DNA of 24,009 bases from a virus, in IMG/VR virus record IMGVR_UViG_3300029259_000536, positions 1 through 24,009 of that record. One strand, 5' to 3'. The notes beneath the pieces were generated by a model. That model had not been told where the DNA came from. It did no database searches and saw only the letters and a list, made by a program, of their open reading frames with translations. The number at the start of each line of letters is the position of its first letter. The first letter of the stretch is position 1. This document shows positions 8,592-23,820 of the stretch, piece after piece. Position numbers and translations under genes: made by a program.

Positions 8592-8998
8592 TATTGAAAT
8601 GTTAACTCAACGTTATCTGTTATTCCCGTTTGAGCAATACTATACTCTAGTGAAACTGTTACAGTATATTGATCAGGATTCGCTGTTACTTCTAAGTTGT
8701 CTATAATAACGTTAGGTATGTTTTGATCTATACCCATTTGTATAGTTTCTTCTAAACCTTCTAAGTTATCGTTTTCTATTTGTTCAAATATGAAGTTTCT
8801 TAAACCGGCACCAAAAGTTGGGTTAGCTATTCGTTCTCCTGTATTTGTTAATAAATAGTTAACTAAGTTATATTTTATAGCATCCTTAGTTTGGTATGTT
8901 TGGTCAAAGACAGCCGGAGCACTAAAGGGTAAAGCTACACCAATAGCGACTCTGGGTCGTAAATCGTTAGGAAATATTTGTCTTTCTCCGAATGCCAT
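8591..8998 (-). CDS. 25: Baseplate wedge protein gp25 (GPW/gp25 family)
   Basis: The 135-residue size and the central motif NTGERIANPTFGAGLRNFIF (about residues 51-70) identify the GPW_gp25 family. The motif Gly-Glu-Arg ... Asn-Pro-x-Phe-Gly is the family signature. In T4 this small subunit is a structural part of the wedge next to gp6 and contacts the sheath; homologs occur in P2, T6SS and other contractile machines. It lies directly before gp6, the conserved order in T4-like genomes. Both junctions are one-base TAATG-type overlaps, implying translational coupling. Confidence 0.93.
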   Translation of the reverse strand: MAFGERQIFPNDLRPRVAIGVALPFSAPAVFDQTYQTKDAIKYNLVNYLLTNTGERIANPTFGAGLRNFIFEQIENDNLEGLEETIQMGIDQNIPNVIIDNLEVTANPDQYTVTVSLEYSIAQTGITDNVELTFQ

Positions 8999-9348
8999 TA
9001 TTTATTCATTATACCCATTATTTGGTCCATCGATACTTCACCTTCTGGTAGTTTACCACCTTCTGATATAGTGTCAACTGGGCCACTGATTTGTAAACCT
9101 TGTGTTGGAGCTACATCCCCAGATGTAAATGATTTTTTCATATCACCTAAAACATTCATGTAACTTTCTCGTACATTTTGTTTAGCCTCAGGTGGGGCTT
9201 GGTTCTGTGTAGGGGGAGAATAGGATTGTTGTTCGTATATTGGTTGCTTGTTTGATTTAACTGCTTCCAATAAAATATCCTTTAGTTCCTCTTGGATTAC
9301 TTCTCTTACTACTTCTCGTAGTGTGTTTTTAAGTTCTGCTAGTTTCAT
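8998..9348 (-). CDS. Small helical protein before gp25 (116 aa)
   Basis: The 116-residue product starts with an amphipathic, coiled-coil-like helix (KNTLREVVREVIQEELKDIL, residues 7-26), followed by a Gln/Pro-rich linker at about 38-60 and a Gly/Ser/Pro-rich tail. No TM or signal is seen. Such small proteins with an RE-E-L-rich N-terminus occur in T4-like structural operons, but I cannot name a function. The start is preceded by a TATTTATAA motif only four bases upstream, the possible promoter of the gp25-gp6 group. The stop overlaps the start of gp25. Confidence 0.75.
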   Translation of the reverse strand: MKLAELKNTLREVVREVIQEELKDILLEAVKSNKQPIYEQQSYSPPTQNQAPPEAKQNVRESYMNVLGDMKKSFTSGDVAPTQGLQISGPVDTISEGGKLPEGEVSMDQIMGIMNK

Positions 9349-9352
9349 ATGA

Positions 9353-9361
9353 TTATAAATA
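9353..9361 (-). promoter_or_regulatory. TATTTATAA motif, candidate late promoter
   Basis: The minus strand reads TATTTATAA four bases upstream of the 116-residue gene's ATG. The first eight bases match the T4 late consensus TATAAATA at six positions. No TTG-type -35 lies 17 bp upstream, which fits a gp55-type sigma that needs none. If it is a promoter, the mRNA would begin at about the start codon. A translation-related role is equally possible. Confidence 0.4.
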
Positions 9362-11058: not shown

Positions 11059-12326
11059 TATATAGTTCTACTAACTTTAGATATTAGTTTATCATTTTTG
11101 ACTAAGTTAATAATCGATTGAGCTACTACTTTAGTATTAGCGGCTGCTGCGTTTACTGGGATATTAGGTACTGCTGCACCTCCAGGCCAGTTTTGAGATT
11201 TTTCTAAGGCTGAACAAACGTTTTTAACACCCTTTAATAATGCTTCAAACTGCTGCATAAAATCATTCCCTAATATTAAGGATTGATCTGCGTCTTTGGA
11301 ACCTAAGTTTACTTCAGATGATGCTAAGTTTATACTTTCATCAGAAGACATACCTATAGTACCTATAGATGTTATTGCTATTTGTTTATTAGAAGATATT
11401 AGTACTGAGTCTGTTTTAGAGTTAAGTACTAATCTACCACTATTTAATATTATTTGATTCTCTAAATATTCTGGTGTTGATATAGGTGACTCATCAAACG
11501 CTTCATATAACTCGTTATCTAACTCTAAAGGTATTTGTTGAGTTGAAGTTAGGTAAATAGAAGATAAATCTTTATTTATATTTTCGGTTATTGGTAACCA
11601 TCCTAACTCAGATGAGTCTGCAGGTTGACCGTTTCTAATAATAGAGATAGGTGAACCATCTTTACCACTATTAGACCAATCGTTAGCATATTCGGAGTCT
11701 GTTTTAGATGTATTACCTAATCGTATACTATTACCAAATCTACCTTCAACTATAGTATCCCCAGCAAAGGGTAAAATAGGATGTATGTTAGTTTCTTCTA
11801 CAAAAGTACCACCTGATTCACCGTTTAAATCTATTTCAGTTGAACCATCCTTAACTCGTCTAACGTTACCACCTTGAGTTTGAGTGTAGTCTTGAGTTTG
11901 TTCGTTTGATTGTGGTTTTAGTGGGTTTGGGTATGCATTATGATGTGGGTGATTCCAAAGTGAAATAGTATTTAGATAATAGAACTTTTCTGAACCAGTA
12001 CGAGTACCTAAACCTGTATCTGGTAGTTTAAATATTAATACTAACTCGTTTACTAGTGGGTATTTTTTACTATTAGCTAATAGTGGTGTTGCTGTGGTTT
12101 TACTTCCTTCTCGGGGGGATTGGAAGTTTACTAATTCAAACTCTATAGTACCAATACCATTCCAACTACCATAACTACCAAAGTTATCAGAGTTTTCGTC
12201 TAATATAACATTCAACACTCTACCAGTCTGGAAGGTGTTATTTAAGCTATCAGTCCTAACCGCTAAGCTAGATACATCAACTTGGTTTAGATTGTCATTT
12301 AATGCAGCGAATCCTAATGTAGCCAT
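11058..12326 (-). CDS. 5: gp5-like baseplate hub/spike protein lacking a lysozyme domain
   Basis: The N-terminal third (about 30-110) has an OB-fold-like pattern (GRVLNVILD ... YPLVNELVLIFKLPD). Near residues 180-205 is HPILPFAGDTIVEGRFGNSI, the marker I associate with gp5-type proteins of marine T4-like phages. The C-terminal part (about 305-350) carries short repeating strands (SIGTIGMSSDESINLASSEV) like the beginning of a gp5 beta-helix. T4 gp5 has a T4-lysozyme domain between these parts; here at 422 residues I see none of its Glu/Asp/Thr motif. The protein would form the trimeric central spike that pierces the outer membrane. The symbol is assigned by this resemblance and is less certain than gp6 and gp25. 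Confidence 0.7.
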   Translation of the reverse strand: MATLGFAALNDNLNQVDVSSLAVRTDSLNNTFQTGRVLNVILDENSDNFGSYGSWNGIGTIEFELVNFQSPREGSKTTATPLLANSKKYPLVNELVLIFKLPDTGLGTRTGSEKFYYLNTISLWNHPHHNAYPNPLKPQSNEQTQDYTQTQGGNVRRVKDGSTEIDLNGESGGTFVEETNIHPILPFAGDTIVEGRFGNSIRLGNTSKTDSEYANDWSNSGKDGSPISIIRNGQPADSSELGWLPITENINKDLSSIYLTSTQQIPLELDNELYEAFDESPISTPEYLENQIILNSGRLVLNSKTDSVLISSNKQIAITSIGTIGMSSDESINLASSEVNLGSKDADQSLILGNDFMQQFEALLKGVKNVCSALEKSQNWPGGAAVPNIPVNAAAANTKVVAQSIINLVKNDKLISKVSRTI

Positions 12327-12664
12327 TATTTAGTGTCTGGTAGTCTTTTGATTTCTCCTAAGAGTTGTGTTTTTTCTTCTTCAGTTAAAAGTGTTACTTC
12401 AGCATCGGTGCCTTTAGTTTGTGTTGCTCGTTGAACAATGGTAGCCATTTTAACTAGTACCTCATCGTTTTTAATACCTAACTCCATATACTCTTTGATT
12501 AATGGTACTATTAAAGTAGCATCACCAATATCCTCGATTAATGGTTTAAGTTCTGATATTAACCCAATAATTTGGGCACCTCTAGTATTTTGATTTTCGT
12601 GGATTTCTTGAAGTATGTCTGAGAATTTCTTCTTACCGAATACTTTATCGTCAAATTTACTCAT
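12326..12664 (-). CDS. Conserved-looking helical protein upstream of gp5 (112 aa)
   Basis: The 112-residue product is almost entirely helical (KFSDILQEIHENQ, LISELKPLIEDIGDATLIVP, LIKEYMELG), soluble and without signal or TM. I do not know its function. It is the first gene after the sigma factor and overlaps the gp5-like start by one base (TAATG), so it belongs with the structural genes and may be an assembly chaperone or hub component. A TATTTATAA motif lies nine bases before the ATG. Confidence 0.75.
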   Translation of the reverse strand: MSKFDDKVFGKKKFSDILQEIHENQNTRGAQIIGLISELKPLIEDIGDATLIVPLIKEYMELGIKNDEVLVKMATIVQRATQTKGTDAEVTLLTEEEKTQLLGEIKRLPDTK

Positions 12665-12673
12665 AGTATTTTA

Positions 12674-12682
12674 TTATAAATA
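12674..12682 (-). promoter_or_regulatory. TATTTATAA motif, candidate late promoter of structural operon
   Basis: The minus strand reads TATTTATAA in the 25-bp gap between the sigma-factor gene and the 112-residue gene. It is the same nonamer as at 9353, 15301, 17570 and 23812. No -35 of TTG type lies 17 bp upstream. Its position at the head of the baseplate operon suits a late promoter read by the gp55-like sigma encoded next door. Confidence 0.45.
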
Positions 12683-12689
12683 TGAGGTA

Positions 12690-13394
12690 TTAAAATCTAG
12701 CGTAGCCATTATCTAAATAAAATAGATATTCTGATTTAAATATGGTGTGTAGTTGTTGCGCTATGCGAGTAATCTTAGGTGTTTTAACATCTACCATTTC
12801 TCTGATGTAAATATATAGTGCTTTTTTATTAAATATCTCTAAGTTTTCTCGTTTACGAAATAACTCTAAAATAGCGTCTGCTATTTGAGCATCGTTACCC
12901 TTGGGGAATAAGGTAAATATATTTTCTGAGGCATAGCTTGTAAATAGATCCATATAATTATCTAAATCACTTTTAACATGCTCTTCACCTGGGTTGTATC
13001 TAAAGTCATCGTTTCTATCTAACTCAGAAGCATCAACTTTTAATACTCGTTTCTTATAGTTTTTGGTATTATATAAGATTAACCAACGTTTCACAATAGT
13101 TCCAAAGTAAGAATATGCCTTAGCACCTCTGGTTGGATCAAATAAGTGTATTTTAGAAAGTAAATATGTTATAATTTCATGCTGAAGGTGTTCGATTTGG
13201 TCTACCTCAGTGTAATAAAATTTAAACGTATGTATAATATTCTGGGTAAGTTTGAAATAAGCATAGTGTATTTCCTCACCATAAATTTTAGAACGTTCTT
13301 CAAAATCAGTGGATGCATTATATCTTACAATAGCATCTTCAGTTTCGTCCGTAAAGTAGTATCTTGAACTACCTGGTTTAGCTTTTCTTGGCAT
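12690..13394 (-). CDS. 55: gp55-like late-transcription sigma factor
   Basis: This 234-residue protein resembles T4 gp55, the minimal sigma factor that directs host RNA polymerase to late promoters. Residues about 40-118 correspond to sigma region 2: EHLQHEIITYLLSKI, then FDPTRGAKAYSYFGTIVKRW and the basic YNTKNYKKR. The segment with Ala-Tyr-Ser-Tyr-Phe and Trp is the typical core-binding/-10-binding helix pair. No region 4 helix-turn-helix is visible, as expected for the gp55 class. It is longer than T4 gp55 (185). It follows a small membrane protein by 9 nt and precedes the late structural operon. Confidence 0.82.
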   Translation of the reverse strand: MPRKAKPGSSRYYFTDETEDAIVRYNASTDFEERSKIYGEEIHYAYFKLTQNIIHTFKFYYTEVDQIEHLQHEIITYLLSKIHLFDPTRGAKAYSYFGTIVKRWLILYNTKNYKKRVLKVDASELDRNDDFRYNPGEEHVKSDLDNYMDLFTSYASENIFTLFPKGNDAQIADAILELFRKRENLEIFNKKALYIYIREMVDVKTPKITRIAQQLHTIFKSEYLFYLDNGYARF

Positions 13395-14814: not shown

Positions 14815-14843
14815 AAGGTAATAAACTTTCCTTGGGTATCCAA
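14815..14843 (-). promoter_or_regulatory. Candidate promoter, TTGGAT-17-TACCTT
   Basis: On the minus strand a TTGGATACC box like the -35 of the recurring phage promoter is followed after exactly 17 bp by TACCTT, a poorer -10 than the TATATT of the other copies. It lies just past the stop of the 150-residue gene and would drive the 69-residue, HD and sigma genes. The -35 is also part of an inverted repeat (14831-14844). Confidence 0.4.
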
Positions 14844-14844
14844 G

Positions 14845-15297
14845 TTATTTTAACCAATTCTCTAAAAACTTCTGAATAGCTAATAAATGGGCGCATTTTT
14901 CATACTCCTCAATACTTTCAAAGTTTCTAATAGCTAGTTGAATCACATAAGCTAAATCATAAGGATTAAATAAAGTTAAATCTAAAACATCTTCTTTATT
15001 ATTCAAATCGAAATCTTTAATATAATACCAAGCGCGATTATAGACTACAAAAGATGCTGCTCTTTTTGTTTCTTCATGGTCATACCCTTGAGCATCTGCT
15101 TCTTTCATTCCTCGTTTAAAATGCTCAAAAAATAGTTGGTGATTCTCAATCAGCTTCTTAAACTTACCAACCTTAAAATGAGTAGAGGATGCTACCTCAA
15201 TTTCAATTTCATTTTCAGATATGCCGTTTATGATATCATCATTTCCATCCTCATCGGGTTGGGGGAATAAATTAAATAGGTTGTTCTTGTCAATCAT
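14845..15297 (-). CDS. Unknown acidic helical protein (150 aa)
   Basis: The 150-residue soluble protein is acidic at the N-terminus (residues 14-36) and helical after that, with aromatic-rich segments (NRAWYYIKDFDLNN at about 90-103; YDLAYVIQLAIRNF at about 112-125). I do not recognise a family. A promoter with TTGGAG-17-TATATT ends nine bases before the ATG, so the message may be leaderless or nearly so. It is probably the only gene of its unit, or it reads on into the 69-residue gene. Confidence 0.75.
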   Translation of the reverse strand: MIDKNNLFNLFPQPDEDGNDDIINGISENEIEIEVASSTHFKVGKFKKLIENHQLFFEHFKRGMKEADAQGYDHEETKRAASFVVYNRAWYYIKDFDLNNKEDVLDLTLFNPYDLAYVIQLAIRNFESIEEYEKCAHLLAIQKFLENWLK

Positions 15298-15305
15298 ATG
15301 TTATA

Positions 15306-15334
15306 AATATACGAAGAATATATCGCTCCTCCAA
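15306..15334 (-). promoter_or_regulatory. Recurring phage promoter, TTGGAG-17-TATATT
   Basis: The minus strand carries TTGGAG (15329-15334), 17 bp, and TATATT (15306-15311) preceded by TCG as in the other copies at 16037, 18233 and 20777. The predicted start of transcription (about 15299) is two bases from the ATG of the 150-residue gene. The -35 sits directly after the terminator of the preceding unit. The -10 overlaps a TATTTATAA motif (15301-15309). Confidence 0.65.
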
Positions 15335-15336
15335 AT

Positions 15337-15360
15337 AAAAAAGGGGCACTTTCGTGCCCC
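15337..15360 (-). terminator. Strong intrinsic terminator
   Basis: On the minus strand GGGGCAC, a GAAA tetraloop and GTGCCCC form a perfect 7-bp GC-rich stem, followed by six T and then ATTT. It lies 28 bp after the stop of the histone-like gene and just before the next promoter. It is the only GC-rich hairpin with a T run that I see in the window. Confidence 0.92.
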
Positions 15361-15387
15361 CTTATATATCAATATTTTATAAGTAGT

Positions 15388-15558
15388 TTACTTATCACCA
15401 GCTACAGATGCCTTACGGTATTCTGTTACTAGGTTTTTGATAGCTCCAATTGCTTTACGAGCACGTTGGTGAGCTGCTTTAGATTTTGAATCATGTTCAG
15501 TTGAGAATGTTTCGTATAACGAATCTAATTGTTCTTTTACTTCTTGTGATGTTGCCAT
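15388..15558 (-). CDS. Histone H1/Hc1-like DNA-binding protein (56 aa)
   Basis: This short frame runs from an ATG one base after the previous stop to TAA and encodes 56 residues. The C-terminal half (KSKAAHQRARKAIGAIKNLV, then TEYRKASV) closely follows the pattern of the small flavobacterial histone H1/Hc1-type proteins (KAAGxRARKA...L..L.KE.RK.S). Those are basic helical proteins that bind DNA and affect nucleoid packing. The N-terminal half is acidic and helical. It is the second gene of a two-gene unit ended by a strong terminator. A role in host nucleoid remodelling or phage DNA organisation is inference. The homology is by recognition of the pattern. Confidence 0.82.
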   Translation of the reverse strand: MATSQEVKEQLDSLYETFSTEHDSKSKAAHQRARKAIGAIKNLVTEYRKASVAGDK

Positions 15559-15559
15559 T

Positions 15560-16006
15560 TTAGTCTTCTATTTTAGTTAATAACTGTTTTAACACTTTAT
15601 TGTGTTTATTCGCTGATAAATACGCGGTAAACTCTGTAAACGTGAAAAGCTCAACAACTTTACCACCAGTATAACGATCACCCACACTAATATCCCACAC
15701 TGATGGGCTATCATAAAATTTATCATTACTGGATTTAAGGTATTGTCTATTATAATAGTTGTCCTTATTTTCCTCGAATACCAAACAAAACTCTAACCCT
15801 TGTTCGAAAAATATATCGTTCTCAGCAACGTAATCTTCCTCGACCATAAAGACTCTACCCTCACCTGCGTTGTTGTTACCGTTTTTGTAGTAAAAGTTTT
15901 GAGCTGGCTTAATAACTCTACCCTTTTCATCTAATACGGGTTCAGTAAACCAAGATGGGTGTTCAAAATACGGTGTTTTTGCTAAATACTCTTTAACGTT
16001 TTTCAT
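15560..16006 (-). CDS. Unknown protein, first gene of unit with the histone-like gene (148 aa)
   Basis: The 148-residue soluble protein is rich in Phe, Tyr, Asn and Glu (for example PYFEHPSWFTEPVLDEKGRV at 12-31), with mixed alpha/beta character and no TM or signal. I do not recognise the family. It stands 30 bp behind a recurring TTGG-type promoter and one base before the histone-like gene, so the two are co-transcribed and end at the 15337-15360 terminator. Early or middle expression is a guess from the promoter type. Confidence 0.75.
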   Translation of the reverse strand: MKNVKEYLAKTPYFEHPSWFTEPVLDEKGRVIKPAQNFYYKNGNNNAGEGRVFMVEEDYVAENDIFFEQGLEFCLVFEENKDNYYNRQYLKSSNDKFYDSPSVWDISVGDRYTGGKVVELFTFTEFTAYLSANKHNKVLKQLLTKIED

Positions 16007-16036
16007 ATGTTATTTTTATTTGTTTATGTTGCCATC

Positions 16037-16065
16037 AATATACGACCTATTACTACGGTAGCCAA
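16037..16065 (-). promoter_or_regulatory. Recurring phage promoter, TTGGCT-17-TATATT
   Basis: The minus strand has TTGGCTACCGTA, then TCGTATATTGATG; the -35 TTGGCT and -10 TATATT are separated by exactly 17 bp. The predicted start is at about 16030, giving a leader of about 24 nt to the 148-residue gene. The same arrangement occurs at 15306, 18233 and 20777. Confidence 0.75.
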
Positions 16066-16139
16066 ATATTTTATTATAAGATAAGGTGGAGTGGTTAAGT
16101 GGGGGTTGTATTTTATGTATACACACTAAAAAACTAACT

Positions 16140-16529
16140 ATGGAACTAGCGATTTACTTTATATCTGGCATTCAACTTACACTATTAGCGATACTTTTAT
16201 ATCAATATGGTTCGATATTAAAAAACTATAAACTAATACAATCCAATCATAAAGCAACTACTAAAAGTTATGAACAGTGGATTAAGTTAACTACAGAACA
16301 ACTAGATACTATTAAAGAACATATATCCACGTCTGATTTTGCTGATGCCGCCACGTTAAACCGCGATTTAAACGCATTTTCAGCGCGTTTAAACGCATCT
16401 GAAACAGCAGTCAACACACTCGCCCAAAAGGAAGCTACTGACGTTAAAACGCTGCAAGATAGTATTAAAAGTATTAAGATATACTTACAAAGTGTAATAC
16501 AGGATGCGACAAGTAATAAGGGTTATTAA
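16140..16529 (+). CDS. Inner-membrane coiled-coil protein, only plus-strand gene (129 aa)
   Basis: From the ATG at 16140 the product is 129 residues: one N-terminal TM helix (about 3-26, LAIYFISGIQLTLLAILLYQ) followed by a long helical, coiled-coil-like region (about 27-122). A GTG at 16086 would add 18 residues that do not look like protein, so I chose the ATG behind an A-rich leader. TM plus periplasmic coiled coil is the layout of an i-spanin (Rz type), but the same layout fits many anchored proteins. It is divergent from the 148-residue gene and converges with the 253-residue gene, overlapping it by four bases. The middle is a little GC-richer than its neighbours. Confidence 0.7.
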   Translation: MELAIYFISGIQLTLLAILLYQYGSILKNYKLIQSNHKATTKSYEQWIKLTTEQLDTIKEHISTSDFADAATLNRDLNAFSARLNASETAVNTLAQKEATDVKTLQDSIKSIKIYLQSVIQDATSNKGY

Positions 16530-17287
16530 GAATAAAGGGAAACGTCGATACTACTATCAACTCTAAAATCCCTACCAGCTTCTTTAGCATCTTCTTTTTC
16601 AATCCAATATATTACTTTACTAAAACCATCATCGTTTGGTTTAGTAATTGTAAAATAACGTAGATTTCTTTCTCTTAGTTTAGAAGATGTGTTAGGACCA
16701 TCTATAGGTAATAGACCTAATTCTTTAGCTTGATCGAATGTAATAGAACCTGACATATCCATTTCGTCACCCTCACTAATCAAAGCTTCATTTATATTAT
16801 GTGGATCAACTCCACTCTTTCTTACAGTAACATCATCATCTTCAAATCCTTCAAAATCAGTATCACCTATGTGATCATAATCATCAACATTTGAATCTAC
16901 CATTTCGATATCATCACCATGGTCAAAATCATCAGGATTAAAACCATTATCATCTAAGTTAGACAACCCACCTGACATAATAACTGAAGCTAATACAGAT
17001 AATACAGCTGAAGATACTACACCTTCTTCTAAGTTAGACTCAGAAACCCTAAAAGCTTCTATATGGTCGTCAATTGTATATTTACTAACTAAATCAGCGT
17101 TATTTGTAATATTTTTAATATACGATATTACTTTAGCTTCGTTATTTTCAACACCCATTAAAGTGTTATAGAAATTCTTAGCTATTCCCATAGCATCATC
17201 TCCATTTACATTTTCACCTTCACCAACTAACTTCATTACTTTAGCCATGTTGATAAAATCTTTAAACTTACTTTCGTATAATTGCAT
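16526..17287 (-). CDS. Acidic protein of unknown function (253 aa)
   Basis: The N-terminal 90 residues are helical. A short hydrophobic stretch (about 91-108, VVSSAVLSVLASVIMSGG) is followed by a very acidic Asp-rich region (about 113-150) and a C-terminal domain with mixed strands (LRERNLRYFTITKPNDDG at about 205-222). I do not recognise it. Acidic, low-complexity middle regions occur in phage DNA mimics and prohead core proteins, but nothing here proves either. It begins 1 nt after the 91-residue gene and its stop overlaps the convergent plus-strand gene. Confidence 0.75.
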   Translation of the reverse strand: MQLYESKFKDFINMAKVMKLVGEGENVNGDDAMGIAKNFYNTLMGVENNEAKVISYIKNITNNADLVSKYTIDDHIEAFRVSESNLEEGVVSSAVLSVLASVIMSGGLSNLDDNGFNPDDFDHGDDIEMVDSNVDDYDHIGDTDFEGFEDDDVTVRKSGVDPHNINEALISEGDEMDMSGSITFDQAKELGLLPIDGPNTSSKLRERNLRYFTITKPNDDGFSKVIYWIEKEDAKEAGRDFRVDSSIDVSLYS

Positions 17288-17288
17288 A

Positions 17289-17564
17289 TTATTTCATTTC
17301 GGGATGATACATTAACTTAATATTCTTAGCGTCTGTAGATACAGAAACACCATCGATTATTACTTCTATGGGGTATGGTTTAAACTCACCAGCCCAATAA
17401 GCGATATCATAACTTTTATCTTTATTATTAGTTACTAACAAACCTCTATCGTAATCTTCGTCTTCAGCTTGTAATATCACTTGTTGGTCCATAGGTAGAA
17501 CCATATCAACGTTTAATGAATCTTCTTCATTTTCACTTAATAATATATCTTTTAGTTTTATCAT
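17289..17564 (-). CDS. Unknown small protein (91 aa)
   Basis: The 91-residue acidic soluble protein starts MIKLKDILLSENEEDSL, an opening I have the impression is common among small proteins of marine T4-like phages, and continues with beta-prone sequence (YDRGLLVTNNKDKSYDIAYW at 38-57). No function is recognised. It is the first of two genes (with the 253-residue gene). Its ATG lies five bases after a TATTTATAA motif, with a TTGTGT 17 bp further up. Confidence 0.72.
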   Translation of the reverse strand: MIKLKDILLSENEEDSLNVDMVLPMDQQVILQAEDEDYDRGLLVTNNKDKSYDIAYWAGEFKPYPIEVIIDGVSVSTDAKNIKLMYHPEMK

Positions 17565-17569
17565 ATCAG

Positions 17570-17601
17570 TTATAAATATGACTACTTAACAATAGACACA
17601 A
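17570..17601 (-). promoter_or_regulatory. Candidate promoter, TTGTGT-17-TATTTA with TATTTATAA
   Basis: The minus strand has TTGTGT (17596-17601), exactly 17 bp, and TATTTATAA (17570-17578). The predicted mRNA start falls about two bases before the ATG of the 91-residue gene. The -35 part lies within the end of the 36-residue ORF. It differs in sequence from the TTGGnTACC promoters. Confidence 0.4.
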
Positions 17602-17692
17602 TCTCCCTTACTTTTTCTCCTAAATCCATATTATTGGGGGTTGTTTTAACTAAATCTAAAATTGACTTTAATAGTATTAAATTTTCCATCAT
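17582..17692 (-). CDS. Very small ORF (36 aa)
   Basis: An ATG ATG start at 17687-17692 opens a 36-residue frame (MMENLILLKSILDLVKTTPN, then NMDLGEKVREIV) that ends at TAG 17582. The amphipathic helix and the NN-MDLGEKVR ending look protein-like, and it fills an otherwise empty gap between the 85- and 91-residue genes. The start follows an A-rich leader like the other genes. No function is known. It could be chance in AT-rich DNA. Confidence 0.5.
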   Translation of the reverse strand: MMENLILLKSILDLVKTTPNNMDLGEKVREIVSIVK

Positions 17693-17707
17693 AATTGTTT
17701 TTTATTA

Positions 17708-17965
17708 TTAACTACTATATGTTGAATTGGATTCCCACTCTTCCTCATCGATTGCTATATAATCTGTGGGGGATGGCATATTTGAATAATTACACCAATT
17801 TAAATCTTCTTTATCATCTTTTAATTTTTGTTCAAAATCCTTTATTAACTCTTTTAACCCTTGGAGGTTTTCGTTTATCCCATCTTGTTCGTATTCATCT
17901 AACTTAGAATATTTTACACCCAAAGTTGATTTTGATAGTTCATTTTGAAGTTGTCTTTTTGTCAT
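17708..17965 (-). CDS. Unknown acidic helical protein (85 aa)
   Basis: The 85-residue product is charged and helical at first (residues 5-55, with LKELIKDFEQKLKDDKEDLN), then short and acidic (IDEEEWESN). No TM or signal is present and no family is recognised. The ATG follows the leader ATAAAAATAAAAGTT, almost the same as that of the HD gene. It lies 18 nt after the 73-residue gene, with which it is probably co-transcribed. Confidence 0.7.
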   Translation of the reverse strand: MTKRQLQNELSKSTLGVKYSKLDEYEQDGINENLQGLKELIKDFEQKLKDDKEDLNWCNYSNMPSPTDYIAIDEEEWESNSTYSS

Positions 17966-17983
17966 AACTTTTATTTTTATTTA

Positions 17984-18205
17984 TTAAATATAATCGTATT
18001 GTGATGCTTCTAAATCATAACCAAACTCAGATATTTCACTACCTTGACATACTTCAAAGAAATCAACATCATCTTGGTTATTATCTACTACAACAGTATA
18101 TTCGTTAGTAACTAAATCTAACATATCACCTAACTCTCTATCGGTAATTAAATCATCTACGTAACCACTAAATAACTTTTCAACTAACTCATTTACATTT
18201 TTCAT
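17984..18205 (-). CDS. Unknown acidic protein (73 aa)
   Basis: The 73-residue, strongly acidic product (Asp/Glu throughout; VDFFEVCQGSEISEFGYDLE at 47-66) has no TM or signal and no recognised family. Very acidic small phage proteins sometimes act as DNA mimics or inhibitors of host enzymes; that is only a possibility. It is the first gene behind the recurring promoter at 18233-18261, followed by the 85- and 36-residue genes. Confidence 0.7.
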   Translation of the reverse strand: MKNVNELVEKLFSGYVDDLITDRELGDMLDLVTNEYTVVVDNNQDDVDFFEVCQGSEISEFGYDLEASQYDYI

Positions 18206-18232
18206 ATGACCTTTATTTTTTTATTATACGTA

Positions 18233-18261
18233 AATATACGAATAGTATCTACGGTAACCAA
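18233..18261 (-). promoter_or_regulatory. Recurring phage promoter, TTGGTT-17-TATATT
   Basis: The minus strand has TTGGTTACCGTA and, further on, TCGTATATT; TTGGTT (18256-18261) and TATATT (18233-18238) are 17 bp apart. The predicted start at about 18226 gives a 20-nt leader to the 73-residue gene. It lies just after the stop of the two-TM protein gene. Confidence 0.75.
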
Positions 18262-18273
18262 GCATATTACGTA

Positions 18274-18693
18274 TTATTTTAGTTGTTTAGAGTTTTTAAA
18301 ATCTGTGATTTCTTGTATTTTCATATCGTTAATCTCAAATATATTACCAGCGATAGATAATTTCTCTACAATCATTTGTTGTAAGTTAATATGCATAGCT
18401 TCTAACTCATCCTTTTGTTTGATTAGATGCTCATTCTTTTTGGATAATGAGGCGTTACTAGCTTCTAATTTAGAAACTTCTTCAGGATTTTTACCTATAA
18501 AGGTATAAATAACCACTGATAGACTACCAACTAGCATACCTACAATCACCTTAAAAATATCATTGTTAGCTTCAGGGATTTCAAAAAAAGCAAGAAATAC
18601 CAATAATCCTATGATTAATAAAAACACCACAGCGCTTCCTAAATAACCCCTTAATTCTTTATCTTTAAACATTCTATATAATTTATTCCACAT
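18274..18693 (-). CDS. Two-TM membrane protein with coiled coil (holin-like layout)
   Basis: From the ATG at 18691-18693 the product is 139 residues (a GTG three codons earlier is also in frame). Two TM helices are evident at about 17-38 (SAVVFLLIIGLLVFLAFF) and 46-65 (IVGMLVGSLSVVIYTFIG). They are joined by a short acidic loop and followed by a cytoplasmic coiled coil at about 75-125. Two TM helices and a charged C-terminus fit a class II-type holin layout, but the long coiled coil is unusual for one. It follows the 307-residue protein by 77 bp. A membrane or lysis role is inferred from topology and neighbourhood only. Confidence 0.72.
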   Translation of the reverse strand: MWNKLYRMFKDKELRGYLGSAVVFLLIIGLLVFLAFFEIPEANNDIFKVIVGMLVGSLSVVIYTFIGKNPEEVSKLEASNASLSKKNEHLIKQKDELEAMHINLQQMIVEKLSIAGNIFEINDMKIQEITDFKNSKQLK

Positions 18694-18770
18694 ATTATCC
18701 ACTAACCATATTATTTTTTGATAACTTTTTTGTTATATATTATACCAATAAATATGTAATAGATAATACT

Positions 18771-19694
18771 TTATAACCAAGTTTTGGGGATAAATTGCCA
18801 CTCATAAATCATAGCTTGTTGGATATTATAATCTACCCCTACTTGATTTAAGAATTTAAAAAACTCATCTTTATCCCATACCCCAAAAGCATCTACTAAA
18901 CCACAAGGGTGTTTAGCATACTGAGCTTCGGGCATCGCTACACAATCTAAGTTAGAAGCGCTTTCAACTGAAAACATAGGCCAAATATTAGGTTGGTTTA
19001 AAGTTGGTGATTTTAGATATTTCCCAATAGAGGTATTTAATATACCTGTTGGATTATTTTTATTAACACAATATGGGGTATTAGGGCATTGACATTGTTT
19101 ACCCTTAACTTTAGCTACAGGACCAGTACAACCACAATCTTTTAACTCATCAACCCAATATACTTCTCTATACTTATTAAGTTGATTCGCATGCGAAGAC
19201 TGACCAGCAAAACCCCAATCAAATCCACTAACGTTGATATATTTAGAAACTAATTGATTTATCCAACTAATCCCCCTAGTACTATAATACCCATGTTCCC
19301 ACTTTCCACCTACATCTTCACTATCAAAACCTACACATGAGATCTTATGATTATTACTATCATTATTAATATCACTAATATATTGGAAAGCTATATCCAT
19401 ACTATCACCAGCTGTAAATATAGGACTATTTGACCACGATGAAGTAGGTTCGGTGTCTAAAACAAAACCAGCCTCACAGTTAGTAGGTAGTTGGTTTAAC
19501 CAATATTTAACAACCCATTTTTGTTTAGCGTAGTGTCCATAGGGTTCATTGGGGTTTTTTAAAATAAAAAATGCTCTTTGGATGTTGTTATCCTTTATAA
19601 ACTTAACATATTGTGAGGCATACGTAGCAAACGTTTTTTCATCGGTTTGAACTCCTTTACCTACTATTCCTTGATGCCAACATCCTATTTTCAT
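18771..19694 (-). CDS. Unrecognised 307-aa protein, possible TIM-barrel hydrolase
   Basis: The protein starts MKIGCWHQGIVGKG and has alternating strand/helix units (RAFFILKN, GFVLDTEP, CVGFDSEDVGG, GFDWGFAG, QQAMIYEWQFIPKTW) that suggest a TIM-barrel-like glycosidase fold. The acidic pairs in LDTEP and FDSED would be natural catalytic candidates. A Cys-rich insert at about 188-208 (CGCTGPVAKVKGKQCQCP ... YC) has CxC pairs and could bind a metal or form disulfides. No signal peptide is present. No family is recognised, so the glycosidase idea is weak inference. It ends an operon with a lipoprotein and three tiny genes and stands before a two-TM protein. An endolysin-like or surface-glycan role would fit but is not shown. 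Confidence 0.72.
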   Translation of the reverse strand: MKIGCWHQGIVGKGVQTDEKTFATYASQYVKFIKDNNIQRAFFILKNPNEPYGHYAKQKWVVKYWLNQLPTNCEAGFVLDTEPTSSWSNSPIFTAGDSMDIAFQYISDINNDSNNHKISCVGFDSEDVGGKWEHGYYSTRGISWINQLVSKYINVSGFDWGFAGQSSHANQLNKYREVYWVDELKDCGCTGPVAKVKGKQCQCPNTPYCVNKNNPTGILNTSIGKYLKSPTLNQPNIWPMFSVESASNLDCVAMPEAQYAKHPCGLVDAFGVWDKDEFFKFLNQVGVDYNIQQAMIYEWQFIPKTWL

Positions 19695-19710
19695 ATCTTT
19701 TATATTTTAC

Positions 19711-19869
19711 CTATACCCAACACACTATACCGTCGATACCCACCGTTATTTCCGCTTTATACGCTTTATTTACGTGTAGCATATATGTTTTGGATGTGTG
19801 TTCGCAACCAACATAACGCCGTTTTGTAGGCGCTGTTTCTTTTATTGTCTTTCTTTTACCTCTTTTCAT
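19711..19869 (-). CDS. Small basic protein (52 aa)
   Basis: The 52-residue frame starts with a strongly basic stretch (MKRGKRKTIKETAPTKRRYV) and continues with two Cys (22 and 50), a His and beta-prone sequence ending GIDGIVCWV. Its ATG overlaps the TGA of the 54-residue gene (ATGA), which supports real, coupled translation. It is GC-richer than its neighbours. No function is recognised; nucleic-acid binding is possible from the basic N-terminus. The next gene (307 residues) starts 16 bp after the stop. Confidence 0.72.
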   Translation of the reverse strand: MKRGKRKTIKETAPTKRRYVGCEHTSKTYMLHVNKAYKAEITVGIDGIVCWV

Positions 19870-20030
19870 AACTTAATCCATCTAAAAATTATATTTGCAA
19901 CAATAAAAAAATTACAAATAACAGCTTGTAATATCAATATTGTTCTAATAAAAGCAATCTTATCTGCTTCTTTATTATGTCCTACTTTTTCACCTAAAGC
20001 CTTAGCCCATAACCTCCAATAGGGTTTCAT
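19866..20030 (-). CDS. Small membrane protein (54 aa)
   Basis: The 54-residue product starts MKPYWRLWAKALGEKVGHN and has one TM helix at about 26-50 (IAFIRTILILQAVICNFFIV). The Trp-containing WRLWAKALGEK start seems to me like a family of small proteins in marine T4-like phages, remembered and not searched. Both ends overlap neighbours by ATGA: its ATG with the 51-residue gene stop, its TGA with the 52-residue gene start. A single TM with a basic N-terminus predicts an inner-membrane protein of unknown role. Confidence 0.75.
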   Translation of the reverse strand: MKPYWRLWAKALGEKVGHNKEADKIAFIRTILILQAVICNFFIVANIIFRWIKL

Positions 20031-20182
20031 ACTTTAAACTTATGATACTGGCCTATTATTTGATCTTTATCGTTAAACATATCAACTTTATCACTATCAC
20101 CTAACTTTTCAACATCTGATATCTTAGATGGGTTAGTTTGAATAATATAATCAATAGTATCTTGCATATATATAACTTTCAT
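20027..20182 (-). CDS. Small soluble protein (51 aa)
   Basis: The ATG immediately follows the lipoprotein stop (20183), and the TGA overlaps the next ATG (ATGA). The 51-residue product (MKVIYMQDTIDYIIQTNPSK ... DQIIGQYHKFKV) is charged, without TM or signal. It ends in a beta-prone segment that could be a small barrel-like domain. No function is recognised. The tight coupling on both sides is the main evidence that it is real. Confidence 0.72.
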   Translation of the reverse strand: MKVIYMQDTIDYIIQTNPSKISDVEKLGDSDKVDMFNDKDQIIGQYHKFKV

Positions 20183-20683
20183 CTATTGTTTTTTTGCTGG
20201 TTTAACATTGATTCTATTATTTCTATTCCTTGGTACTACTCTCCTTGTAGGTGGGTTATTAGTTGGTCTTAACCTTGGGATTGGGTTTGTACGTGGAGGT
20301 GTTGTGTTTCTTCTTGTTTTAGGTCTTGTTCTCTGTTTAACTTTCGGTCTATTAGGCGTGCTATACACAGGAGGAGAAACATTATAATACCTATTCCCAT
20401 TTGTAAAACTGTTTGAGTAATATCTAGGGTAGTTATTAAAGTATCTAAACCTGTTATAAGAGTACTCCCAGCTGTTTCCGTATGGGTAATTGTATTGATA
20501 TCTTGTATTAAATCTATCATAATTATTATTTTGAAATTTATTTATGGGTACGGCTATGGTATCACCCTCAGCTGTAATCGTTAATACTTTAACTATGTTT
20601 ACTCGTGGGGTATTAGTATTGATTATTTCAAACGTCCCACATGATTGGAACACTACCATTATTAATAAAATAATTTTTTTCAT
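20183..20683 (-). CDS. Phage-encoded lipoprotein, Tyr/Asn then Pro/Arg-rich (166 aa)
   Basis: The N-terminus MKKIILLIMVVFQSCGTFE is a lipoprotein signal peptide with cleavage before Cys15 and the Ser-Cys-Gly pattern of Bacteroidota. After a short beta-like part (about 25-50) the chain is Tyr/Asn/Arg-rich (about 52-100) and then Pro/Arg/Thr-rich and very basic (about 105-166). No catalytic motif is visible. It could be an outer-membrane lipoprotein acting in lysis (o-spanin) or in superinfection exclusion; o-spanins are also Pro-rich lipoproteins but are much shorter. It heads the operon 20183-18771 behind the recurring promoter at 20777. A second frame inside it encodes a TM-containing ORF (20269-20520). 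Confidence 0.82.
   Translation of the reverse strand: MKKIILLIMVVFQSCGTFEIINTNTPRVNIVKVLTITAEGDTIAVPINKFQNNNYDRFNTRYQYNYPYGNSWEYSYNRFRYFNNYPRYYSNSFTNGNRYYNVSPPVYSTPNRPKVKQRTRPKTRRNTTPPRTNPIPRLRPTNNPPTRRVVPRNRNNRINVKPAKKQ
20269..20520 (-). CDS. Possible embedded TM ORF inside the lipoprotein gene (83 aa)
   Basis: A second minus-strand frame within the lipoprotein gene encodes 83 residues with a hydrophobic helix (MGIGIIMFLLLCIARLIDRK at about 41-60) followed by a charged tail (NREQDLKQEETQ). A start at Met41 would give a 43-residue TM protein. Nested spanin genes are known in phages, so it is worth noting. There is no ribosome-binding site and no other sign that it is expressed; chance is a serious alternative. 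Confidence 0.25.
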   Translation of the reverse strand: MIDLIQDINTITHTETAGSTLITGLDTLITTLDITQTVLQMGIGIIMFLLLCIARLIDRKLNREQDLKQEETQHLHVQTQSQG

Positions 20684-20695
20684 AATTTATGATTG

Positions 20696-20755
20696 TTATT
20701 TAATTAACATCCCTAAAAGGCATGTTAATATGATTATAAATAAGACGTATGGCAT
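20696..20755 (-). CDS. Possible 19-aa hydrophobic peptide ORF
   Basis: Between the promoter at 20777 and the lipoprotein gene the minus strand has ATG 20753-20755 to TAA 20696-20698, encoding MPYVLFIIILTCLLGMLIK. It would be a single short TM peptide, the first reading frame of the operon transcript. Its size makes chance likely, but tiny membrane peptides in lysis or leader roles exist. Confidence 0.25.
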   Translation of the reverse strand: MPYVLFIIILTCLLGMLIK

Positions 20756-20776
20756 AACTTTAATTAATATGACATC

Positions 20777-20805
20777 AATATACGAAAAAAGAATATGGTA
20801 ACCAA
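20777..20805 (-). promoter_or_regulatory. Recurring phage promoter, TTGGTT-17-TATATT
   Basis: The minus strand has TTTGGTTACCATA and TCGTATATTGATG; TTGGTT (20800-20805) and TATATT (20777-20782) are exactly 17 bp apart. The sequence around the -10 is nearly the same as at 16037. It lies 8 bp after the stop of the 611-residue gene and would transcribe the lipoprotein operon with a leader of about 85 nt. Confidence 0.75.
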
Positions 20806-20813
20806 ATATTTCA

Positions 20814-22649
20814 CTACACTTGTCCACCATCAATTACAGTCCATGGTGTATTAACAATAGATGTTCTAGCAGTTACAGATGAAATGGTGAAGGTTAAATC
20901 GTTAGTAAATCTTGCATTTACCAAACGTGCACTACCTACCCACCCTTGAAGTAAACTATTATAGTTAGTTGTTGTCATAGCAGTAGCGATAAACATATTA
21001 TTAGCTGTTATTAAACTTCCAACATCCCAATTTCCTATATCTTGACTAAAGGCTGTAGCTCCATTAAACATATTATCCATATTAGTTACATTACCTGTAT
21101 CCCAAATACTTAAATCTTGGTTAAATAACGTAGCATTTTGAAACATACTATCCATAATACCTACATTATCTACAGTCCAGTTGGTTAAAGGTAGATTAAA
21201 AGCAGATGCATCTTTAAACATATTACCCATAGTAGTAATATTTGAAGTATCCCAAGCCCCAATAGGTTGATTGAATGCTGATGCACCTTGAAACATATTA
21301 TCTACATCTAGAAGTGCTGTAGTAGGCCAAGTACTTATATTTTGATTAAATGATGTAGCAAACCTAAACATAGAATCCATTATAGTTACACTAATTACAT
21401 TCCAACTTGAAATATCTACATCAAAAGCTGCAGCTCGATCAAACATACCAAACATATCAGTAACTAAGCCAGTTTGCCAACTACTTATATTTCCATTAAA
21501 AGAATATGCTCCATTAAACATACTTTGCATATTAGTAACTTTACTAACATCCCAAGTATTTAAACTCTGGTTGAAATTCACCGCATCCCTAAACACTATA
21601 AACATGTTAATTACGTTACTTACATCCCAACCACTTAAGGGTTGATTAAAAGTAGTAGCATTATCAAACAATCCTGCTACATCAACTAAACTTGTAGTAA
21701 CCCAGGTGTTAATACTAGCGCTACCTCCATTATTAAATGCAAAGGCCTTTTGGAACATAAAAGCCATATTATTCACAGAAGAAACATTCCAACCTCCAAT
21801 ATTTTGGTTAAAAACACTACACGTATTAAACATGCCACTCATACGAATCACATTACCAACATTCCAATTAGATATATCCCCATTAAATGCACTATTTCCA
21901 AAAAACATACTACCCATGTTGGTTACATTAGATGTATCCCAACTATTTAGAGGTTGATTGAAAACCAAGTTAAAGAAGAACATCCCTTCCATATTAGTCA
22001 CATTAGAAACATCCCAATTATTTAGGGGTGAGTTAAACTTTGAGGCACCAGCAAACATAAAATACATTTCAGTAACTAAACTTAAATCAGGAGCCTCAGC
22101 ATCGGAAAATCCAGTTAAATTACTACACCCATTAAACATATTTTCCATACTAACCCATTGAGTAGTACCCCAATTTATCACCCGAGTAATAGTTTGGCTT
22201 TGAGCAGCAGTAACACCATTTACGCCTTGTTCTAACTTATCCCAATCACCAAAGATACTAATATCATAATCCCCAGCAGTAACATATGTGTGAGTGGGTA
22301 TACCTGTTCCACTTTCTATGGTAGTATCCCCCCAATTAATAGTAAAGGTTGCAGCAGCATCATTTTTAGTAATACCAACTTTCATTACAAAGTTATTAGT
22401 AGGTATAGTAACACGGATAGTAAAGTCATCAGTTACATCTCTCGCTTTAGAGGTTTTATCCCTATCACTACCACCTGCTGCTTTTTGAGCAATCATCATT
22501 TGATGTAGTTGGATATTACTTACATAGTTTTCAAATAGAAATTGTTCATCTCTAAATTTTTCCTTTAACTCTAATAAGGGTAGGTTTACGTTATCATTCC
22601 TTTTAATAAAGTGTAACCAGTTTCCTGGGTCAGTTGGTTCTATTAACAT
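20814..22649 (-). CDS. BspA/DUF285 repeat protein with PKD-like domain (611 aa), fibre or adhesin
   Basis: Layout: a 47-residue N-terminal module shared with the neighbouring 374-residue protein; a PKD-like domain at about 75-155 (TINWGDTT ... HTYVTAGDYDI); about 15 DUF285 repeats of 25 residues at about 168-545 (type MFxxAxxFNQxLxxWDVSNVTNM); and a C-terminal cap at about 555-611 (NYNSLLQGW ... NTPWTVIDGGQV). DUF285 repeats form BspA-type leucine-rich-like solenoids and occur in surface adhesins of Bacteroidota and Mycoplasma. There is no signal peptide, so in a phage it is more likely a virion fibre or spike than a secreted adhesin. Host recognition is inferred. It is the middle member of a tandem family. 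Confidence 0.85.
   Translation of the reverse strand: MLIEPTDPGNWLHFIKRNDNVNLPLLELKEKFRDEQFLFENYVSNIQLHQMMIAQKAAGGSDRDKTSKARDVTDDFTIRVTIPTNNFVMKVGITKNDAAATFTINWGDTTIESGTGIPTHTYVTAGDYDISIFGDWDKLEQGVNGVTAAQSQTITRVINWGTTQWVSMENMFNGCSNLTGFSDAEAPDLSLVTEMYFMFAGASKFNSPLNNWDVSNVTNMEGMFFFNLVFNQPLNSWDTSNVTNMGSMFFGNSAFNGDISNWNVGNVIRMSGMFNTCSVFNQNIGGWNVSSVNNMAFMFQKAFAFNNGGSASINTWVTTSLVDVAGLFDNATTFNQPLSGWDVSNVINMFIVFRDAVNFNQSLNTWDVSKVTNMQSMFNGAYSFNGNISSWQTGLVTDMFGMFDRAAAFDVDISSWNVISVTIMDSMFRFATSFNQNISTWPTTALLDVDNMFQGASAFNQPIGAWDTSNITTMGNMFKDASAFNLPLTNWTVDNVGIMDSMFQNATLFNQDLSIWDTGNVTNMDNMFNGATAFSQDIGNWDVGSLITANNMFIATAMTTTNYNSLLQGWVGSARLVNARFTNDLTFTISSVTARTSIVNTPWTVIDGGQV
21015..22148 (-). repeat. Tandem 75-bp DUF285 coding repeats (about 15 units)
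   Basis: This is the repeat region of the 611-residue gene. Each unit of about 25 codons keeps Met-x-x-Met-Phe, Phe-Asn and Trp-x-x-(Ser/Thr)-x-Val at fixed spacing; units differ at most other positions. The period is occasionally longer (a 29-residue unit with FAFNNGG). Such arrays can change length by recombination. Confidence 0.85.
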
Positions 22650-22669: not shown

Positions 22670-23794
22670 TTATGGTGTGCAGTTAGTAAAATTTGGTTTG
22701 GGTAATACCCAAGAATCGGTTCCATCAAATACCTGCCCACATAGTGAAACACCACCTACACTCCAACTACTTAAATCTTGATTAAAATCACTGTTATTAA
22801 TAAACATCCCAAACATTTGGTTAACATTATTTACATCCCAACTACTAATATCTTGATTAAAATACACACCACCAAAAACAGCATTGTAACCAAACATAAA
22901 ATCCATATTAGTTACACTTGTTAATCTATTTGCCCAAGAAACAATAGAATTATTATTAAATGATGACATAAAAAACAACGATCTCATTGTAGTAACAGCA
23001 GAAACATCCCATCCCCCAATATCAGCGTTAAATACTTGTGCATTAGAAAACATACCATCCATATTAGTCACTAACGAAGTACTAGTTCCTGCTGACCATG
23101 AGAGAGGTAATTCACCATTGTTAAATGCAAATGCATTATTAAACATAGCTTGCATATTAGTCACAGAAGAAACATTCCAATCACCAATATTTTGATTAAA
23201 TACTAAAGCACCTTTAAACATAGCAACCATATTAGTCACAGAAGAAACATCCCAAGCGCTAATATCCTGATTAAATGCTCTTGCAAAATTAAACGTATTA
23301 TTCGTCAAAGTAACACTGCTAGTATCCCAATTCCCAATAGGTTGATTAAATGAATTTGCTCTAAAAAACATAAATGACATATCTGTTACGTTAGACATAT
23401 CCCACCTATTAATATTATCGTTAAATGTAGAAAGGCCACTAAATAGTCCCTGCATATCTGTAATAGCACTTACAATCCAATAATTTATTTCACCATATTG
23501 TGCTATAGCTGCAGCTCTATTAGTTACCCATAAAGCAATAGCAGCGTCTAATTGAGCCCTCGATATAAAAGTAAACACAACCCCCTCATAAACATAAGGT
23601 TTCTTTCTCTCTCCACCACCCCAATTATCAGAAACTATTAGTTTACTAAGTTGTTGGAAGTTAGTTATATAGTTTTCAAATAAGATTTGTTCGTCTCTAT
23701 ATTTTTCTTTTAACTCTAATATAGGTAAACCTTTATTATCCTCCCGTTCTATGAAGTGTAACCAGTTACCAGGATCTGTTTGTGATATTAACAT
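22670..23794 (-). CDS. BspA/DUF285 repeat protein (374 aa), fibre or adhesin
   Basis: The first 47 residues match the N-terminal module of the 611-residue protein at 35 of 47 positions ([25 protein letters not shown]). A linker with [20 protein letters not shown] (about 82-101) leads into about nine DUF285 repeats at about 112-350 (for example [20 protein letters not shown]). It lacks the PKD-like domain and the NTPWTVIDGGQV cap of its sister and ends with a different Cys-containing tail (CGQVFDG ... NFTNCTP). No signal peptide. It is probably the same kind of virion surface protein, with the shared N-terminus serving as attachment module and the repeats as the variable part. Confidence 0.85.
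22745..23461 (-). repeat. Tandem DUF285 coding repeats (about 9 units)
   Basis: Repeats of about 25-31 codons in the 374-residue gene, with Met-x-x-Met-Phe, Phe-Asn and Trp at fixed spacing. One unit (FAFNNG with a longer loop) corresponds to the elongated unit in the 611-residue gene, indicating common descent of the two arrays. Confidence 0.8.
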
Positions 23795-23811: not shown

Positions 23812-23820
23812 TTATAAATA
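23812..23820 (-). promoter_or_regulatory. TATTTATAA motif upstream of the 374-aa fibre-like gene
   Basis: The minus strand reads TATTTATAA in the 48-bp gap between two DUF285 genes, 17 bases before the ATG. No well-spaced -35 is present. It is the same nonamer as at 9353 and 12674, which also precede virion genes. Confidence 0.4.

Follow-up and report, generated by a model that had tools for sequence, protein, structure and literature searches.

A putative early promoter class with fixed spacing and a late-type motif in T4-related phages akin to Flavobacterium phage immuto

The stretch analyzed here, IMG/VR virus record IMGVR_UViG_3300029259_000536, comprises 24,009 bases with a G+C content of 32% and is hereafter called the window. 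Its minus strand carries nearly all large open reading frames (ORFs). In a family search, the proteins encoded at 6750-8591 and 8591-8998 matched baseplate wedge families, and the nearest named phages by the former protein are Flavobacterium phage immuto (44.8% identity over 99%) and Microcystis phage Mel-JY01 (41.1%). By these matches the window is part of the genome of a T4-related phage, one closely allied to immuto; the host of the window phage is probably a member of the Bacteroidota. Upstream of several genes the window contains a recurrent motif, TTGGnTACC followed at a fixed distance by TATATT. These sites probably represent promoters of an early class, meaning early or middle as opposed to late, in a large group of T4-related Bacteroidota phages related to immuto, as part of a scheme that would also include a phage sigma factor and a late motif.

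Fixed motif and spacing within and beyond the window

The full pattern TTGGNTACCNNA-N11-TATATT was searched in the window and compared with shuffled sequences. Three minus-strand sites (Table 1) match TTGGNTACCNNA-N8-TCGTATATT without a mismatch, and TCG precedes TATATT at each of them; for independent bases, about 2e-6 exact 18-base matches would be expected on both strands. Up to three mismatches to the searched pattern were found at 9 places, compared with 3.25 +- 1.75 in shuffles. A preliminary description of this DNA, which had reported the shared motif with 17 bp to TATATT and the TCG at these sites, was thus exact. It had also placed each site in a gap directly upstream of a gene, which holds for the three full sites, all outside ORFs; the fifth site it listed (14815-14843) lies farther off. 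That site, with TACCTT for TATATT, is a weaker but plausible candidate for an early-class promoter. At the fourth (15306-15334) the reported TTGG, the 17-bp spacing and TCGTATATT are all present, but plain membership of the class is not supported. Its TATATT ends just 8 nt before the ATG, a strong terminator precedes it (Table 1), and the site reads TCGTATATTTATAACATATG, which matches the late-type motif found before 12326-12664, 8998-9348, and 17289-17564. Because TATATTTATAACATATG within it fits the late motif of this phage group too, it may, judged by its letters, belong to another promoter class.

A pattern scan of IMG/VR yielded a set of loci on at least 120 stretches, picked by the exact pattern including its spacing, whereas only 13 stretches in a 257-Gb collection of bacterial and archaeal genomes contain it. 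This agrees with the earlier proposal of a phage-specific class and argues against a host promoter as the origin of the exact pattern. Among 120 listed loci, the distance from TTGGNTACC to TATATT is 14 at 133 distinct sites and takes any other value from 8 to 23 at only 2. Since the loci were picked with this spacing, fairer tests are the 14 sites that were not selected by the picking pattern, and immuto, which was picked by protein similarity and not by motif. In the immuto genome, the matrix finds 33 sites on the coding strand but just 1 on the opposite strand, and the reversed control gives 0. On the coding strand of five large genomes (G001, G015, immuto, G028, and G029), 169 copies of TTG-N20-TATATT were counted, compared with 11-28 for every other spacer length from 14 through 26, so that the invariant spacing extends well beyond the window. 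With an iterated matrix, the loci yielded 350 distinct sites scoring >13, whereas the reversed control yielded none. On this control, the exact matches, the TTGGNTACC spacing, and the expectation given above, a chance origin of the motif is rejected. The enrichment in intergenic DNA that the preliminary description had proposed as a check was also found, so that the outcome it had named as refuting, equal numbers inside genes and between them, did not occur: 269 of 381 sites (loci and window) lie mostly outside ORFs, though ORFs cover 85.6% of the DNA, and of the 348 sites having a same-strand downstream ORF, 232 have it within 50 nt.

The consensus of the early motif is TTGGHTACCbNA-N7-TTCGTATATTyA. 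Its fixed parts are TTG, TCG, and TATATT, and the N20 spacing persists where TACC varies. The ACC extension, described earlier as conserved, is found in that TACC follows TTGG in most sites, but it is not invariant: CTCCC, CTTCC, and AGAAG also occur at this place, TTGGCTCCC and TTGGAGAAG elsewhere in the group, and TTGCCT in immuto, where TTGC is favoured. Genome G015 contains both TTGGATACC and TTGGAGAAG sites. Part of the exact pattern matches belong to a coding family with the translation L-D-T-P-E-I-S-R-I-L, and 24 of the 381 sites have that look. These were removed before the starting matrix was built (98 of 118 sites kept), and later matrix rounds may have regained some. Inspected by eye, four of the 13 genome-collection stretches (L123, L128, L132, and L133) resemble phage promoters in marine metagenome-assembled genomes, L129 is a member of the coding family, and L121, L125, L127, and L130 seem unrelated. 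The remaining L122, L124, L126, and L131 are copies of one Chryseobacterium potabilaquae repeat, with TTGGATACCTCAATAGGATTTCGTATATT beside CGTCTCACAACTGAGGCGG, near contig ends. A search for a third promoter class in 127 upstream segments without early or late matches yielded just A-rich words and more TCGTATA. No earlier description of this motif or of the promoters of these phages was recognized in the open-licence literature, judged by titles and the beginnings of abstracts.

Several observations concern the surroundings of individual sites. Many genes downstream of early promoters in the IMG/VR loci begin as AATAAAGGTTATG, a recurring start context. In immuto (NC_055915.1), the annotated starts of gp156 and gp148, at 64499 and 66953, coincide exactly with an early promoter's -35 TTG and are thus probably miscalled; one early-type site, at 67555 (-), opposes the gene direction and perhaps points toward an unannotated RNA. 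In the window, a 19-codon minus-strand ORF with a AAAGTTATG start (20696-20755) lies within the 93-nt gap after the promoter at 20777-20805. The unit downstream of the 16037 promoter includes a 56-aa protein that matches the histone H1-like Hc1 family (15388-15558, minus strand; Pfam E 3.6e-9). Upstream of the same promoter, a 147-aa plus-strand ORF (16086-16529), without a match in a PHROG search, occupies a gap between minus-strand genes. The minus-strand gene 20814-22649 encodes a DUF285 repeat protein (Pfam E 3.9e-121), and the same phage families are matched by this protein and by the product of 22670-23794, also on the minus strand.

Table 1. Putative promoters and associated features of the window. 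Distances are to the next ORF of at least 50 aa.
Feature	Position	Strand	Remarks
Putative early-class promoter, full consensus TTGGTTACCATA-N8-TCGTATATT	20777..20805	-	0 mismatches; matrix score 30.6; outside ORFs; 93 nt to next ORF
Putative early-class promoter, full consensus	18233..18261	-	0 mismatches; matrix score 40.9; 27 nt upstream of ATG of 17984-18205
Putative early-class promoter, full consensus	16037..16065	-	0 mismatches; matrix score 36.9; 30 nt upstream of ATG of 15560-16006
Hybrid site, TTGG-N17-TCGTATATT with late-type TATATTTATAA	15306..15334	-	matrix score 23.5; TATATTTATAA 3 nt upstream of ATG of 14845-15297
Weak candidate early-class site, TTGGATACC with TACCTT replacing TATATT	14815..14843	-	matrix score 23.0; 2 mismatches; 135 nt to next ORF
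Intrinsic terminator hairpin GGGGCAC-GAAA-GTGCCCC-TTTTTT	15337..15362	-	directly before hybrid site 15306-15334; 75-nt segment folds at -21.8 kcal/mol
Late-type motif TATTTATA	23813..23820	-	before repeat protein 22670-23794
Late-type motif TATTTATA	17571..17578	-	before 17289-17564
Late-type motif TATTTATA	12675..12682	-	before 12326-12664, directly after sigma gene
Late-type motif TATTTATA	9354..9361	-	before 8998-9348
Putative gp55-like sigma factor, 234 aa, candidate late sigma	12690..13394	-	SigI-type models, phrog_234, structure match to gp55

Target genes, the late motif, and a gp55-like sigma gene

Genes were labelled by their best immuto homologue, with 78.9-103.4 kb and 114-160.4 kb of immuto taken as late (structural). 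The labelled targets of the early motif are almost exclusively non-late (non-late/late: G001 9/0, G015 8/1, immuto 27/2, G028 14/0, G029 6/0). The total of 64 non-late versus 3 late targets differs strongly from the other labelled genes (Fisher p 4e-11) and has the form expected of a T4-type early class, which stands before early or novel genes and not before structural ones. The earlier assignment to an early or middle, non-late class is supported by the non-structural nature of 64 of these 67 targets. Genes for DnaG primase, single-strand binding protein, and a DNA polymerase are among the labelled targets. The structural genes of immuto instead tend to carry (C/G)TATTTATAA or ATATTTATAA close upstream of the ATG. 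Among the labelled targets of this late motif, late genes are favoured (76 late, 64 non-late; p 3e-6).

The window gene directly before one of the late-type motifs encodes a sigma-like protein that is 49% identical to immuto gp118 and is annotated just as hypothetical in the named relatives. SigI-type NCBIfam models are matched by 30 of the 39 members of its family (best E 1.7e-5), Sigma70_r2 by 19 (best E 0.0072, with the window protein below the family cut-off), and phrog_234, a late sigma factor family, weakly by 15 (best E 0.018). Its predicted structure (mean pLDDT 74.6) has T4 gp55 as its best match (chain 7d7c_F; Z 10.5, rmsd 3.6, 115 residues aligned). Sigma factors make up nearly all structure rows with Z >=8, which suggests a sigma domain 2 fold, although helical models may reach such Z values by chance. 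Foldseek alone gave no PDB match for the model under E 0.16, a PDB sequence search with the single protein gave none, and a PDB profile search with the family returned merely one weak, unrelated match. Mel-JY01 has a homologue, from which a further search found no relatives.

The gene lies at a boundary between zones. None of 160 loci around it has an early site downstream, and the late motif stands at its 3' end in 138 of 155 loci versus 12 on the opposite strand. Early matches upstream were found in 95 of 107 loci, an upper bound because it counts sites 386-434 nt upstream of the gene (about 50 loci) that lie in coding DNA and, by eye, look like coding coincidences. The gene is present in 5 of 5 records of at least 142 kb and missing in 5 of 10 smaller ones, and its product is the sole sigma-like protein found in the five large genomes. 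From its position, the late motif, and its modelled fold we infer that it encodes the late sigma factor, which would be produced from the early zone and would then act on the genes beyond it.

Candidate readers of the early motif

If transcription starts 7 nt beyond TATATT, TTG would occupy -35 to -33 and TATATT -12 to -7. Host promoters have their TTG at the position named -33, and the TTG-N20-TATATT peak would place the phage TTG there as well. The -10 region is different. Flavobacterial sigma-A sites read TAnnTTTG at -12 to -5, according to excerpts of PMC9723704, whereas the early motif has A at -5 in 122 of 169 sites and G in only 13. TAnnTTTG is enriched in 240 kb of a Chryseobacterium control (49 sense, 26 antisense), which contains no early-matrix match and no sense TTG-N20-TATATT-N-A. 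No such enrichment is seen in upstream DNA of the phages (sense/antisense: G001 4/9, G015 7/12, immuto 1/8, G028 9/13, G029 5/13), where several of the few matches are, by eye, the TTTGG of an early promoter itself. The early motif thus differs from host sigma-A promoters. The likeliest reader, at about an even chance, would be a phage-supplied factor that shifts the specificity of host sigma-A. Such a factor is attractive because TACC would lie at -30 to -27, the region of the Mot box in T4; the factor would contact TACC and replace the missing G at -5. Binding of an activator at TTGGnTACC, as suggested previously, is a plausible candidate mechanism. The enzyme would most likely be host core RNA polymerase, since searches revealed none encoded by the phages: the five large genomes gave no match to the beta-subunit domain PF00562, and the search for T7-type polymerase (PF00940) had no matches anywhere, controls included, and so shows nothing.

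Alternatively, unmodified host sigma-A may read the sites as strong early promoters of the ordinary kind, their extra conservation reflecting strength only. We consider this a serious contender that falls clearly below an even chance. The retained TTG at the host position and TAnnTT speak for it, as do the missing beta-subunit domain and the lack of enriched host-type promoters that might act first; T4 early promoters, read by E. coli sigma-70, likewise have an extended, phage-typical -35 region (excerpts of PMC1524935). The scarcity of G at -5, in comparison with the host TAnnTTTG, and the Chryseobacterium control, empty of both matrix matches and the sense pattern, are the main arguments against it. 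That the gp55-like sigma itself reads TTGG...TATATT is improbable. Although no other sigma-like protein was found in the five genomes, its gene sits where the early zone ends and the late zone begins, and Mel-JY01, which has a homologue, contains 1 matrix match in the 50 kb examined. T4 gp55 is not known to need a -35 box. According to PMC1524935, in the same excerpts, this best fold match of the phage protein reads a short late box.

A further explanation is that an intrinsic terminator has been fused into the promoter spacer and that TACC owes its conservation to forming the terminator's loop and 3' arm. As a general cause of TACC this was rejected and is very unlikely to be right, although the hairpins are real in a subset of sites. 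Coding-family sites were removed before the two hairpin tests, in one of them for the loci set only. Of 480 distinct sites, 88 fold at <= -8 kcal/mol over -14 to +19, compared with 12.8 (maximum 18) after column shuffling. In the TTGGNTACC subset, however, hairpins this stable occur at only 13 of 145 sites (5.3 expected, maximum 10). Fixed-register pairing is close to what is expected, and covariation in such a register was looked for and not found. None of the three full window sites has a stable hairpin, and G029 has no hairpin excess. Terminator-like hairpins that overlap both the -35 box and the spacer occur at loci including L148 and L152, and their paired arms change together (GGGAGC/GCTCCC, GGTAGC/GCTACC). 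Several hairpins end in T runs before TCG (mean T run 1.8 in hairpin sites, 1.5 in others). In this subset, the upstream gene's intrinsic terminator seems to have merged with the promoter that follows.

Under the preferred reading of the sites as early-class promoters, each would stand at the start of a short unit of replication, metabolic, or small unknown genes; the gp55-like sigma gene closes one early zone, and its product would read the late motif ATATTTATAA before particle genes. Motif, spacing, strand, position, target class, and the difference from host promoters are shown by the sequences, whereas the start 7 nt after TATATT, activity, timing, and the factors involved are inferred. 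Several points weigh against this reading. The early and late labels reflect homology to immuto gene blocks instead of time courses. The five large genomes hold 186 early-matrix sites, of which 83 have targets without a labelled homologue and 36 lack an ORF in the next 120 nt, and the 3 late genes among the labelled targets do not fit. Four of the five genomes were selected for holding the motif. The late motif is AT-rich, its matrix background is high and its controls are noisy, and no candidate activator was identified. Taken further, the group may make little or no use of host-type promoters and rely on one early class of its own specificity (TTG, A at -5, TACC, and a 20-nt spacer), read by host polymerase with a phage factor that is possibly virion-borne, a subset of the promoters being fused to terminators. 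This extended view is tentative, and we place it slightly below an even chance.

Phages of this group are common in IMG/VR, judged by scans for the sigma-like protein, and little studied, and the motif would show how they time their genes. Its sharpness allows genomes to be split into early and late parts from sequence alone, genes of unknown function to be dated, and gene starts called at a -35 TTG to be corrected. It also offers a handle for finding the protein that redirects the RNA polymerase of Bacteroidota, itself unusual in promoter recognition, and a possible source of strong, phage-specific promoters for Bacteroidota genetics.

Comparison with known promoter systems

With Bacteroidota sigma-A promoters, the early motif shares TTG near -33 and TAnnTT; it differs in its A where hosts have G at -5 (TAnnTTTG; excerpts of PMC9723704) and in its strictly fixed spacer. 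It resembles the early promoters of T4 in its many copies before early and novel genes, its -35 and -10 boxes, the extended conservation around -35, and the use of host polymerase that is assumed here. The T4 early consensus, however, combines GTTTAC with the E. coli sigma-70 -10 box, as excerpted from PMC1524935, whereas the motif described here has TTGGHTACC, TATATTyA, and N20 between TTG and TATATT. In the MotA-dependent middle promoters of T4, the Mot box GCTT lies in the -30 to -27 region (same source), and the conserved four-base TACC would lie at the same place, given a start 7 nt after TATATT; here, though, the change affects the host-type end of the -10 region, and the TTG at -35 is retained. 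The late side recalls T4 late promoters and gp55 in its short AT-rich box before structural genes, with no second box seen, and in the gp55-like sigma encoded in the genome. The box itself is ATATTTATAA here and TATAAATA in T4 (excerpts of PMC1524935), and the 234-aa protein has a C-terminal part past the domain aligned with gp55. The early/late promoter scheme proposed for these phages would be a new variant of the one in T4.

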